Positions 31,446-37,400 of a stretch of 64,000 nt of DNA are shown piece after piece (the first letter of the stretch is position 1; every line of letters begins with the position of its first letter). Both the position numbers and the translations under genes were made by a program. This DNA is from Halichondria panicea. Lineage: Eukaryota > Porifera > Demospongiae > Suberitida > Halichondriidae. The notes beneath the pieces were generated by a model. It saw only the letters and a list, made by a program, of their open reading frames with translations, was not told the DNA's origin and ran no database searches. The stretch lies in NCBI RefSeq assembly GCF_963675165.1, contig NC_087380.1, forward strand, positions 7,136,017 through 7,200,016. The letters are read 5' to 3'.

Positions 31446-31495
31446 TATGCATATATATAGTTATAAGAACCAGTTCTGTACACTGTAACAGTGTA

Positions 31496-32276
31496 GTTGC
31501 AGCACTTGATCACATACAAGCCTTTGCTTTGGTGTCTTTAAAGACGTAGAATCCGAACGAGAGTGCTGGGAGGTGTAAGGTGGGTGTGACTGACTGCTGG
31601 AGAGGGGGAAGGTCAGGGAGGCTGCTATCGTTGTTCGTTCAGAGCCACCTCCCTGTAGGGGGGAGGGAGAGGGGGAGGGGGTTAGCAACAAAACAACATT
31701 TATTTTCTTGTCCGTGTTATAAATGTATAACTAATACACATGTATGTATGTATATAATTACCAAAGCTGTTCCTCATGACACTATAGAGCATCATTTTAA
31801 AATGCTACCATATATCACCTTGTATATAATATCACTGTAAAGTATTATAAATAATTATGTATACTGTACATGTAACTAGATATTAAACCCATGACAGCCT
31901 AACAATAATTTACATGTACAAAAAAGGACAAGCAGAACCACATCTCCAGACAGGTATGCTCTTGCATGAGAGAAGAGGGGAAGAAAATCTCCAATATTGC
32001 ATCTGATTACTTTTTATTCAGCCTGAACACATCAGCTATATACATTACATTATACATAATTATGTATACTGAACATATCCACACAAACACATGTGCTTGC
32101 GTAAGTGTAGGAAATACAATAGTCAATCAAAGATGTACTACCTAACTCACGATTAGTCTCGCGGACCCAGACCCTGATATATATATGATATTTATTATAT
32201 CAGCTGGTCCACGAGATTAACTCACGGTTGAGACCCTGACATGTCTCCTATGGTCCAGTGCTCCACTAACATTCCT
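31496..32276 (-). pseudogene. Degenerate copy of heparanase 3' exons (7-9)
   Basis: 31496-31700 matches the last heparanase exon and flank (34465-34660), with a 17-base loss and a 3-base gain that break the frame. 31895-31985 matches the 34720-34740 flank fused directly to 35050-35110, so about 300 bp including most of exon 8 is deleted. 32220-32276 matches part of exon 7 (35392-35462). The fragment is non-functional. It follows the copied WDR18 exon by ~50 bases. Confidence 0.85.
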
Positions 32277-33455
32277 TGAATTAATAGCGGTTCAGGGAAA
32301 GGGTGTAGTCTTACCCACACACCCCTTCCCCAAAAAGGTGTGGTTTCAAAGAAGGGAGGGCAGTCTGGCCACACCCAGACTAAAGGAAGGGGTGCTCCAG
32401 CCCCCAAAGCCCTGCCCCTCCCTACGCCCCTGCAGACAAACACACTGTGTACTCGCTTGCGCATGCGTAATAACTGTCAAGAATACAAAGTACACAAGTG
32501 AAGTGATAATTGGAGATTGATTCATTATTAATTATAGTTCTTATTAGAGTTAATAGTGTTCTGGATTGTTAGTGCGGTATGTTTCTTGCGGTGGTGGTTG
32601 TATGTCTGTACAATAAAAAAAAAATCAACAATATACAACTATTGAACCAATGGTGTCACAACCCTTACTACCCTTACTCATCTCTATATACCAAGAGTTC
32701 ATTAGGCAACTCCACTTAACACAATAGGCAGGGTTTCATACAGAGGGGGAGGGGGCGCCCTGGGATTTTCCACCCCCAGCTAAACTTTCTCCTCCCTAGA
32801 AATCTGAAAATTAATGATGTCATAATGTATGATTTTTCTCCCTGGGATTTTCCACCCCCAGCTAAACTTTCTCCTCCCTAGAAATCTGAAAATTAATGAT
32901 GTCATAATGTATGATTTTTCTCCTTAAAAATGCTACATAATAGAATGAAATTTATGCACACAAAAAACCCAAATTTGCACCTCAGATAACCGTTCCTCAA
33001 AACATTTTCCGGGAGAGGACCCCACCCCCCCTCAATTAAACATTTCTCTCTCCCAGCTAAAATTCCTGTATGAAACCCTGGTAGGCGTCCAGCCACATGC
33101 TGTTGTGCATATAAACTGTGAAATTTTATTTTTGCATGTTCTGCTATTTCTGTGAAGGAGAGTAAAATTACAAAAATGTGTGGAAAAATGCTCATTAAGC
33201 AAATAATTATGAATTTCACAACTTGAATTTAATACCTAAACAGAAATCTACCTGTGAAAATAATTATGTAATCTTAATACTGTAAATGACTATTCCAACA
33301 TTCTGAGCAAAAGGGAGGTTCCATTGCTCCCTTGGATCACCCCTAGGCCCTTGGATCTACCGCTGATGAGTACTATCAATTTCCACTTTGGTACAGTACA
33401 CACTGACATTGGACATCACAGTCTAGACGTACACATAATGGAATACAAATTACAT
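32277..33455. other. Intergenic, repeat-rich; no gene seen before the micropeptide gene
   Basis: Contains GC-rich text around 32290-32430, an NRF1-like 'tgcgcatgcg' near 32459 and the MITE at 32733-33082. I found no coding exon in it. Confidence 0.5.
32733..33082. mobile_element. MITE with CAGGGTTTCATACA ends, with internal tandem duplication
   Basis: Ends CAGGGTTTCATACA and TGTATGAAACCCTG are inverted repeats, with TAGG just outside both. Inside, an 84-bp block ('ccctgggattttccaccccc' ... 'gtatgatttttctcc') is repeated head to tail at about 32757-32840 and 32841-32924. It is related to the smaller element at 6324-6421. Confidence 0.7.
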
Positions 33456-33820
33456 TCACCTACTATGATGGTGGACGGCAAAAGCTATCAGTCCAAGGCC
33501 GATGGTCAAACTGATCCCGCCGACAATGATCCCTAAACCGACATACGTACCCAAGGTTGTGAGACCATCAGTATAACCTTTTGCCAAAGTTTCACCATGG
33601 ACGACTAAGCCGTCTTTGATTGGTTTAAAGATTTTCCTGGGGGTGAGGAAGCAAAAAACAACACTTGTGACAAGTAAAACAAGCTAGCGAGGATGCTAAG
33701 GTATTAAAATAAATGTAAAACGCTAGCTGCAGTAGTTATACTTACTCTAGCCTCGATTCAAGGCCGATTAAAATACGTATTTTAATCGGCCTGGAATCGA
33801 GGCTATACTTACTCTATCAT
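33456..33820 (-). CDS. Putative two-exon 62-residue membrane micropeptide
   Basis: Coding exon 1 is 33813-33820 (ATG ATA GA), followed by donor GTAAGTA. Coding exon 2 is 33456-33636, after a good acceptor (ctcacccccag). The phases join as M-I-E-K-I-F-K-P-I-K-D-G and the total is 189 nt, 62 residues plus stop. A polar N-half (HGETLAKGYTDGLTTLG) leads into one long hydrophobic stretch (about residues 32-57: GTYVGLGIIVGGI, then SLTIGLGLIAFAV) ending HHHSR. A glycine-rich single-pass helix or hairpin is expected. The 5' UTR exon appears to begin at 33887 after 'tttctacag', so an upstream non-coding exon probably exists (a CAG|GTAGTA donor near 34204 is one candidate). I do not recognise the family. 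The intron holds the palindromic element 33747-33805. Confidence 0.6.
33739..33813. mobile_element. 59-bp palindromic mini-element with 8-bp target duplication
   Basis: The element at 33747-33805 starts CTAGCCTCGATT and ends AATCGAGGCTA, and is an almost perfect palindrome through GGCCGATTAAAATACGTATT. It is flanked by TACTTACT at 33739-33746 and 33806-33813. On the minus strand that duplication reads AGTAAGTA, the splice donor of the micropeptide gene. The 8-bp length is typical of hAT-type insertion. Confidence 0.8.
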
Positions 33821-33907
33821 TTTCAGAAGTCCAGTCCACAGTTAGAGAAGTTAAACTGGATTACATCACATCTATATATGAAACCTGTAGAAAAAAAGAT
33901 GATGAAA

Positions 33908-33954
33908 CCTCGCATTAAAACGGTACTAATAATTAGTACCGTTTTAATGCGAGG
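33908..33954. repeat. 47-bp perfect inverted repeat
   Basis: Arms of 23 bases (cctcgcattaaaacggtact then aat) around a single A. It lies ~20 bases upstream, on the minus strand, of the acceptor that opens the micropeptide 5' UTR exon. It could be another mini-element or a hairpin former. Confidence 0.8.
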
Positions 33955-34476
33955 TCTTTTTCTATAAAAATAATTATTATTATTGTGAATTTTAGCAAAT
34001 TTGTAATTAACGCTAATTAGGTAGATTACCCTAAAACGCATTTAAAAAAATTATCTGCCTGACTCCAAACCGAGCTCCAAACTTCCATTCAACAAAATTA
34101 CTTGACAAAAAACTCATACTCTTACATCTTTTGACAAATAATTGTGTCAATCAAATCTGCCAAAATTAATACCCTAAAAAACTGAAAAATAAAATTACTA
34201 CCTGACTCGTAACATTAAGGTAGTCCTCTGTTTATGAGTCTAGCTGCTGGGAAGTATACATGTACGTAGTTATTATTAAAACTAACTACTGAAATAAATC
34301 AACTGTTGTATAGATAGTGACTGCTGTTATTATTACGGTTATTTTTTTGTGCACAATTAGTGTAATTAAAATAATAGTCATTCTCAAATTTCCAAAATGT
34401 CCAAGATGTGTACAAAACAATTAAAGTGTTTGTCCTCTATCATAGCAAAAAAAAAGTATAAAGTTGCAGCACTTGA
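33955..34476. other. AT-rich gap downstream of heparanase
   Basis: Over 500 bases of AT-rich DNA between the heparanase stop and the micropeptide 5' exon. No coding exon is seen. A CAG|GTAGTA splice-donor-like site (minus strand, near 34204) could end a non-coding exon. Confidence 0.4.
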
Positions 34477-37400
34477 TCACATACAAGCCTTTGCTTTGGT
34501 GTCTTTAAAGACGTAGAACCCGAACGAGAGTGCTGGGAGGTGTAAGGTGGGTGTGGCTGACTGCTGGAGAGGGGGCAGGTCAGGGAGGCTATCGTTGTTC
34601 AGTGACAAGACCACTCCGTTCAGAGCCACCTCCCTGTAGGGGGGAAGGGGTTAGCAACAATAAATATGAAAACAACACAATGTTATAAATATGTACACTG
34701 TACTAGAATTCTCTGAGAGCCTAAAAATAATTTACATGTACAAAAAACCTTTGGCCCTTATACAGAGGTGGCTTTTGTTGAGGGGTGTTGTATACAAACC
34801 ATTAATTTAGGATCTGCATGTGTGCCTGCCTGGCCTATATATGCCGTAGTTAGCCTTTCTTCATGCAGGGATGGTCGTTGAGGTTACACTGTACCATATA
34901 ATTAAGATACACGATAGTTATAGGTCCAGCTGCTGCGCTTACTTGCTGAGTACGTTGGTGGTGTTTCCCGGGGGAGAGAGCCAGTAGACATCTCTCGGAG
35001 CAGCTGCCAGGGAGGGGGACATGAGAGTGGCAGTCGTGTCATACGTGTGGAGATTCAGGACAAGCAGAACCACATCTCCAGACGGGTACGCTCTGTATGG
35101 GAGGAGAGAGGGGGAATATTTATATGATCATAATTATTGCCAATTAGGCAGTTAATAAACATGTTCATGCACAAACACTAGGAAATACAACAGTAGCTAG
35201 CAATTCAAAGTCATGTATGGCCGATGAGCCATTTGAACGTATTTGGTGGTTTTAATTTGGCATCTCAGACGTGGCTACTGCTGCAATGACGTTGTGTCCA
35301 CCGGAAAACTCTAATTAGACGGTTTTAAATTTCGGTAAAATCCGCTAAATCACCAAATAAAACACCCACCAGTACGGTACATGTAGTAACTCACGGTTGC
35401 CTAGCGCAGTGTGCGTAGACCCTGACATGTCTCCCATGGTCCAGTGCTCCACTAACATTCAATACATTCACTCCCACCAACCTCTTGTGCAGCACTGACA
35501 ACCAGTAGTCCTGTATGCAAGCATGCACATAATTATTACAGTACAGTGACAATACACAGAAACAAGGGGGGGGAGATTGTCGGGTAGAAAGTGGAGAGAG
35601 TCGGGAAGAGTGGGTAAGAAAGGGGGACAGTAGGAGAGAGTATAAATACATCAACAACAATTTCAATCAGCTCAGCCTATAATAGTGCAATGTCCTAACT
35701 GGTATATGATTGTGGTATATATTGTCGTACTGGTAATGGGTTGAAGGAGGAGTCCAGAAGAGAGTAGGAACCTCCAATATAGTCTTGCCTGAACACTCTG
35801 GAGGTGTTGGTGAGGGCAGCCACACCAAGCTTGTCCAACCACCTACATGTACAATTATACACAACCATGCAGGAGTGCATGTGCACGATAATAAACTGAA
35901 ATGTAAGCTAAGAAACATTGTAAACGTATAGCGGGTAATTTTCGTCGGTGCAAATTTTCGTATGAACTGTCCATTTAATATTTGTACAGCTCAGGAAAAT
36001 GACGTTGAATCAAAAAAGTTCATTTTTGTTGAATACGAAAAATGCGAAAATTTCCACCATACGAAAATAACCCGCTGTATATACAGTATCTTTACACGCA
36101 CATGAATCCTGATACAAAGCTGCTTGACAGAACTGGTGTACCACCTCCATAACAACTGGATGTCTCTCCAAGCCATAGCTCAGCCTTGGGGAGATATTTA
36201 AATGCGTAGCTCTTAGCTTCTTTGGCTTCATTGATGAACGAGTCTAGTACAGCAACATTGAACATGTCTGGCAACACAGCTTTGGCTCCATTTAGATAGT
36301 AACTGCATGAGAAGGAGATATACACATTCACCTTTTTGTAGGAGATATTATTACTTACTGATGCCATGTAACTGCTTGGATAGCACTTGGGTCCACATGT
36401 GACAGAAAGCTGCATGTAACGGAAATCAAAGTCAATAAAATTAATGAGACGTATTACCTGGTAAAGAAGGCACCTCGATTCAGAGTAGCTACGTCAGGGC
36501 CGCCAATGTATTGTGGTGAGATTTGTAATTCAACCAGTAGATCTTTAAGGGTCTTGAAATCCATTGCCAGCTGCTCTGCTTTCACACTGATATTCTCAGA
36601 AAATAAATCTGGTTCTGCAAATTGAGATGGAGTAATCAAATGTACCGTATACTATAGCGGGTATATTTCAGGGTGTAAATGTTCGCGGTTTTCGGTGATT
36701 AAGCATGTACTGCGAACATTTATAGATATATACCCCACTAATTTCATATCGCATGCTAGCCTCCTTCCTAACCCTAAGTGAAGTGGGAAGTGCGGCCTGG
36801 GATCGAGGCTAATCGCATGCATGCATTGCGCGCTGCAAAAAGGCTGCTATTCCGTGCAAATAAAATCTGTGAAAACTTTCGCGGAAAAGTTTCTACCCTC
36901 AAAATGTACATGTACCCGTTATATTACCATTTCCCAGTTCCCAGTTAACGAGTTGTGCTTTTTCTGCAGAGTACTTCAACAGATCTCTGGCATTGCTGCT
37001 GTCCCAGGAGCCATCTTTATTACGCAGGAGAACATTTAGTCCAAAAATAAAGTCCCAGCCAGCTATATCATATACAAACTGGGTGATGGCGAACCAATCT
37101 TCAATCGTCATATTGAAATTAGCCATGGGGCTCTTGTCTTCTTGTGGTAACTCATTTCTGCTCTGATTTTTCTGAAAAATTAGATAATCTTGTGATGTTC
37201 CACCTATTCTCAGCATTGTAGGGCGCAGAGCTTGTGCAAGGTTGAGCATCTTGGAAGTAGTGAAGTCAAATTTTGTCCATTCTCCTCTACCCACTGATCC
37301 TGCGTCAATGGTGACAGAGAGGAACTGATCACTCACCACACACTGCACAGTGTCCAGGTTTACTGTAATCTCATTCTGTAGGGAAAACTAACTTTAGAAG

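Follow-up and report, generated by a model that had tools for sequence, protein, structure and literature searches.

A likely two-exon membrane-micropeptide gene in Halichondria panicea whose coding exon differs between paralogs more than its non-coding flank

A two-exon locus on the - strand of a 64,000-nt stretch of the Halichondria panicea genome (C4:7136017-7200016, below called the window) is likely to be a real coding micropeptide gene. On balance, and somewhat less firmly, we also favour the combined statement that it is a functional gene belonging to a membrane-micropeptide family not yet described, together with the functional model and the history of sequence exchange described below. 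Orphan membrane micropeptides are a kind already known; what is unusual here is the evolutionary pattern. Three paralogs depart from the window by 10-42% in exon 2 but by 0-3% in the approximately 190 non-coding bases that follow it, which are far better kept than the exon.

The structure was read directly on the - strand. In agreement with the preliminary description, an 8-nt coding exon (ATGATAGA, 33813..33820, phase 2 at its end) with a GTAAGTA donor is joined in phase to an exon of 181 nt. Exon 1 is identical, donor included, in the paralog on contig C9 (L009). Intron 1 (33637..33812, - strand) continues from the donor into a pyrimidine tract that closes with CCCCCAG, up to 33637, of which the CAG is the acceptor. 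Exon 2 (33456..33636, - strand) codes for KIFKPIKDG...HHHSR followed by TGA, which is supported by dN/dS, a null test and in-frame indels (see below). The joined exons read MIEKIFKPIKDGLVVHGETLAKGYTDGLTTLGTYVGLGIIVGGISLTIGLGLIAFAVHHHSR, with the length of 62 residues and the sequence given before. It could be argued that exon 2 starts 5' of the CAG and that translation of the pyrimidine tract yields a signal peptide, which targets the product to the secretory pathway. An open frame runs through the tract in the window (LVLLVTSVVFCFLTPRKIF) and in L009, and in the paralog L010 an in-frame ATG gives MALFILLATFFCFLTPRKIFQ..., a signal-like start. However, the open stretch has no ATG in the window and L009 and a stop lies before it, and the codons of pyrimidine tracts are often those of hydrophobic residues. 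Besides, the divergence between the window and L009 begins exactly at 33636, the first base past the CAG, as a splice site predicts. We regard this longer exon as quite improbable.

The genome searched was an assembly of 131 Mb in 39 contigs. A DNA search of it yielded relatives of nearly full length, one on C9 (80%) and one at C1:8431931 (81%). The window exon as protein query gave six rows at five loci, and other members as protein queries added C15:1489619, C1:1643427, C1:6822770 and C15:1508860. The last is a distant member (E 0.035 in the protein search), and its membership is supported by the flanking DNA, which is 72% identical to the window over 90 nt. The earlier suggestion of a hidden two-exon gene therefore stands as to coding; it does not stand as to a lone gene, since the same genome contains at least 10 related loci. 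L009 keeps exon 1, donor, intron 1, acceptor and frame, and its intron 1 shows 2 mismatches to the window in 110 aligned sites, a transposon insertion in the window apart. The main exon is kept in paralogs on C1 and C15. Exon 1 was searched for in L010, L061, L062 and L063 and was not found at these four loci; its presence in one paralog only counts against a working gene. The C-terminus, the TGA and the candidate donors discussed below are spanned by a 30-mer (TCATAGTAGGTGAATGTAATTTGTATTCCA, 33439..33468, - strand) that had nine genome matches, all exact though 3 mismatches were allowed, while the reversed 30-mer as control had none. It is absent from at least three more distant relatives, namely the C15:1508860 member and flank relics on C13 and C3 (87% and 81%). 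Among the nine 30-mer loci the exon is open in the window, L009, L010 and L061. L062 has a TAG inside the exon, the first part of L063 is out of frame, and L015, L059 and L064 are pieces of the locus only; these broken or fragmentary relatives are a further point against a working gene.

That the family was not recognised at first is in line with the database searches. The window protein has no family in Pfam, where five members gave one non-significant match (E 1.1); NCBIfam contained none for the micropeptide, and a search of the PDB with the five-member profile gave no hit at E up to 10. The profile and the structure alignment comprised 5 of the at least 10 members. The 27-mer and 25-mer cores had no match in bacterial, archaeal and viral contig collections, which is uninformative for an animal. 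No such family appeared among the listed titles of the literature on sponge micropeptides. Two features were seen near members elsewhere. L062 (5000-6950, - strand) and C15:1507700-1509090 (L076, L074) share upstream exons of another gene (ITDGALLDSENNQLVIAE / VTDGAILDEDKNQVFIAE and the following exon; in a small search, E 1.8e-4 and 5.7e-11), which have no Pfam family and could not, by eye, be joined in frame to the transmembrane exon. A Cys/His-rich stretch that by eye looks PHD-finger-like lies at L061 3297-3435, 5' of the C15 transmembrane exon.

Exon 2 has been kept as protein across the paralogs. Its dN/dS was 0.187 for window-L009, 0.329 for window-L010 and 0.339 for L009-L010 (59, 59 and 66 codons compared), with a dS of 0.58, 0.21 and 0.52, respectively. 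The neutral substitution pattern that had been named as fatal to the gene was thus not encountered between paralogs (dN/dS 0.19-0.34). When the same substitutions were placed at random (20,000 draws, counting the observed number or more), the excess of synonymous changes had a P of 0.00015, 0.12 and 0.0013 in the same order, and is significant in two of the three pairs, which are not independent. The length differences of exon 2 in the three pairs are 33, 21 and 12 nt, all multiples of three; those in the flanks include 1, 5, 6, 7 and 8 nt. The window-L010 pair, non-significant by itself, is a point against a coding gene, as are its last 31 codons, which contain one synonymous and five non-synonymous changes. 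An antisense gene through the 30-mer (MEYKLHSPTM...) is open. Its changes are mainly non-synonymous in window-L009 and L009-L010, and in these two informative pairs the antisense frame is without such constraint (pS 0.078 and 0.040, pN 0.129 and 0.136). Window-L010 has only 3 changes and the nine exact 30-mers are without the silent variation that would point to a constraint on protein; this candidate was rejected. Hypermutation of the exon by a deaminase-type process was likewise rejected, as transitions numbered 13, 9 and 16 against 18, 8 and 25 transversions.

Intron 1 of the window contains a 58-bp palindromic MITE (33748..33805, unstranded) with many other copies in the genome. Its 9-bp target duplication (GAGTAAGTA, at 33806-33814 and 33739-33747) is the donor itself, which has been doubled in this way. 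Clear 9-bp duplications were present at three of the five other MITE copies examined (L006, L007 and L008) and were unclear at L004 and L005. The MITE is absent from L009, in which exon 1 and donor match exactly. This implies that the two-exon model is older than the insertion. On paper the upstream donor copy is usable; the downstream copy would bring a TAA into exon 1. As the donor is restored by the target duplication, the gene may have withstood the insertion. Just 5' of exon 1 the window has a second palindrome (33902-33960, arms GTACCGTTTTAATGCGAGGT). The recent insertion on the donor, the dispersed locations and the many truncated or broken copies would also fit a relic, that is, an exon that was spread by segmental duplication and once constrained, and is not expressed now from this locus. 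Yet the window, L009, L010 and L061 all have an unbroken frame, a donor that works on paper has been left by the target duplication, and the synonymous excess and in-frame indels are those of a protein. A relic is therefore considered rather unlikely, and a working gene remains our preferred reading.

The micropeptide gene is situated close to a heparanase-like gene on the - strand (36899-37387, 34462-34650 and 31495-31638; Glyco_hydro_79n, E 9.7e-15), the last exon of which we presume from the likeness of its C-terminus. This putative last exon occurs twice, at 31495-31623 and 34462-34590 (98% over 129 nt), with the micropeptide gene in between. The position on the same strand between two copies of that exon could mean that the upstream gene uses the micropeptide exon as an alternative last exon and is tethered to the membrane by it, and both acceptors take two bases from the preceding exon. 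Such agreement of phase, however, has a one-in-three chance, exon 1 supplies a start of its own, and the exon also occurs in L009, L010 and L061, where a heparanase exon was not noticed, though no targeted search for it was made. A tether of this kind is highly improbable.

With fewer than 100 residues and one predicted hydrophobic helix long enough to span, the product has the makings of a single-pass membrane micropeptide. The single Gly-rich hydrophobic stretch described earlier (residues 34-57, YVGLGIIVGGISLTIGLGLIAFAV, codons 33474..33545, - strand) was borne out by hydropathy, and the coding by the codon tests between paralogs. Its Kyte-Doolittle 19-residue maximum is 2.40 in the window and 2.24-2.50 across five members, and the Y, G, G, G, L and HHHSR columns are invariant in the five aligned members. 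The N-half (residues 4-33, codons 33546..33635, - strand) had been called polar, which was too little: it is predicted to be amphipathic and helical by both its hydrophobic moment and AlphaFold2. The moment of the window N-half at the helical angle is 0.454, and none of 5000 shuffles reached this value; against as many shuffles L009 was also above all, L010 had a P of 0.001 and C15:1508860 of 0.03, tests that are not independent between paralogs. The best angles were 97, 98, 97 and 99 degrees for the window, L009, L010 and C15:1508860, respectively. AlphaFold2 with the five aligned members predicted one helix (residues 3-58 of 59, mean pLDDT 88.7, pTM 0.46). The extra 33 nt of L009 are exactly one further 11-residue unit; 11 residues make three helical turns and 7 make two.

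From this anatomy, a function like that of the regulins might be inferred. We tentatively suggest that the N-half, in steps of 11 residues or three helical turns, would lie on the membrane face, and that the C-half would span the membrane and pack through small-residue faces. The amphipathic surface helix would run on into the spanning helix, and the peptide might act as a small oligomer that regulates or stabilizes a membrane protein or the bilayer, phospholamban-like. Oligomerization is an inference from the Gly pattern only. Regulin-type micropeptides are phospholamban, sarcolipin, myoregulin and Drosophila sarcolamban. They are likewise very small, with an amphipathic helix followed by one C-terminal hydrophobic helix, and oligomerization is plausible in both. 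However, a sequence relation is lacking (the PDB profile search and Pfam gave neither match nor family), so that membership fails on sequence, and to our knowledge a Gly-rich stretch and an HHHSR end are not features of regulins. Proteins with 11-residue amphipathic helices are the synucleins, apolipoproteins and perilipins. The three-turn step is shared with these, as seen from the moment peaks at 97-99 degrees and the extra unit of L009, whereas here only one to three repeats are followed by a transmembrane stretch; the likeness is functional and no homology is claimed.

HHHSR had been taken as the end of the product. It stands right before the TGA, and possible splice donors are present there, so that the C-terminus may continue. 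Exon 2 would then be an internal transmembrane exon, from which a donor in the 30-mer is joined to an exon at 32605 that adds a short hydrophilic tail; the protein would have 78 or 73 residues, and translation would reach the TGA only in unspliced RNA. Such a structure is a refinement of the best explanation and does not exclude it, and we hold it at a little below even. The 30-mer has two donors 4 nt apart (A^GTAGGT and AG^GTGAAT, in GTAGGTGAAT), and the candidate last exon (32550..32605, - strand) would end in ...HHNIQPPPQETYRTNNPEHY from the first (78 aa) and in ...HHHSRHTTTTARNIPH from the second (73 aa). The acceptor TTTTTTATTGTACAG is found at the matching place in L010 and L061, and lies 854-858 nt downstream in the window, 524-528 nt in L010 and 1187-1191 nt in L061. 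Via the first donor all three close after a short tail (NIQPPPQETYRTNNPEHY, NIRAPAAPPQQQQH and NIQPPPQQRTTPRRTIMN), and at the corresponding position of the C15:1508860 relative stands AG^GTAAAT. On the other hand, the tail is too variable to align, the L061 frame is open far beyond via the second donor, and the homologous stretch of L009 has no such exon. In L062 and L063 the region remains, though without the acceptor, C15:1508860 has no window-like last exon in the 1.7 kb past its donor, and 18 copies of the acceptor stretch in C1 1.25-2.04 Mb are without a transmembrane exon. A like arrangement is that of the GYNNGY tandem 5' splice sites (PMC4267661): in the micropeptide gene, GTAGGT at the exon end gives two candidate donors 4 nt apart. 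By the title of that paper, most such tandem sites are noise.

The C1 region just mentioned (1.25-2.04 Mb; L057, L058 and L060) contains 18 of the 23 matches to the candidate last exon, beside apparent tandem RNA-recognition-motif genes, two motif halves of which were below the cut-off of the Pfam RRM models (E 0.0023 and 0.0019). That these last-exon-like stretches are part of the motif genes was rejected, since the motif gene of L058 appears by eye to end earlier (…NGKN^VEIKKVA*); we take them to lie 3' of these genes. The putative intron 2 of the micropeptide gene contains a transposable element with 15-bp terminal inverted repeats (32729..33080, unstranded), which is common to the window and L061 and is not in L009 or L010. 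It has within it an exact 82-bp tandem duplication (32758-32921).

The window's non-coding flank proximal to exon 2 (33268..33458, - strand) shows 97-100% identity to that of three paralogs, with mismatches at 0 of 191 positions in L009, 5 of 188 in L010 and 2 of 177 in L061. Exon 2 itself has an identity to the window of 82.1% in L009, 90.4% in L010 and 57.9% in L061. The mismatch density of exon and flank differs in six pairs (Fisher P from 0.015 to 1.5e-32). Between the window and L009, 32 substitutions lie from 33636 to 33477, whereas the stretches 33666-33637 and 33476-33242 on either side are free of them. Non-coding divergence is thus below synonymous divergence, and a dS of 0.2-0.6 beside a flank divergence of 0-3% is impossible for a single history under neutral drift. 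The closest relative also shifts along the gene: it is L009 in intron 1 (40 of 41 informative sites), L010 in exon 2 (25 of 40) and L061 in the intron-2 transposon. The 15 informative sites in the flank after the exon, which are few, group window with L009 at 8, L009 with L010 at 6 and window with L010 at 1. Exon and flank histories are discordant (chi-square P 0.001).

Both the gap between dS and flank and the shifting nearest relative favour ectopic exchange of the flanks, with selection against exchange of the exon. The family may be an old set of distinct peptides, the introns and 3' flanks of which would be homogenized by ectopic gene conversion while selection would keep the exons apart; to judge from the sequences, we favour an old exon held distinct in this way. 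The relatives are dispersed over C1, C4, C9 and C15, and gene conversion is commoner between neighbouring copies than across chromosomes, which is a point against exchange. Alternatively, the flank could be under constraint at the nucleotide level. Some constraint of this kind is suggested by the exact 30-mer in L059, L063 and L064, copies that otherwise share almost nothing. The part at about 33297-33343 of the flank recurs as a dispersed repeat (28 of the 40 matches listed). A structured RNA in the flank was not supported: Rfam over 32300-34000 gave 12 matches with E up to 1, all below gathering and mostly palindromes, and the fold of 33290-33480 had a z of -0.30. There is also an outside chance that the coding exon is an exchangeable or fast-diverging cassette, and that the 30-mer and the 190-nt flank are an element fixed at the nucleotide level, as DNA or RNA (e.g. 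a regulated splice-donor or 3'-end element). Such an element would take exons of different age, perhaps by cDNA-templated conversion with tracts that stop at exon ends, and in that case the family would be a diversifying set of peptides, active on membranes and specific to its lineage. Homogenized introns with exons kept distinct, as in the exchange reading that we prefer, are described for the gibbon opsin genes (PMC3213168) and the copepod GOT1 paralogs (PMC3728101). In primate L/M opsins and GOT1 the exons, synonymous sites included, diverge more than the introns, and exon and intron trees disagree (PMC3213168, PMC3728101). The opsins differ in being neighbours in an array, whereas the micropeptide copies are on C1, C4, C9 and C15.

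If the preferred explanation is right, H. panicea would possess a hitherto undescribed membrane-micropeptide family, which standard gene prediction would miss on account of its 8-nt first exon and short second one. It would provide a clear natural case of dispersed genes with near-identical introns and 3' flank in which the coding exon is old and distinct, and would open the question whether it is selection or a templated process that holds the exons apart.
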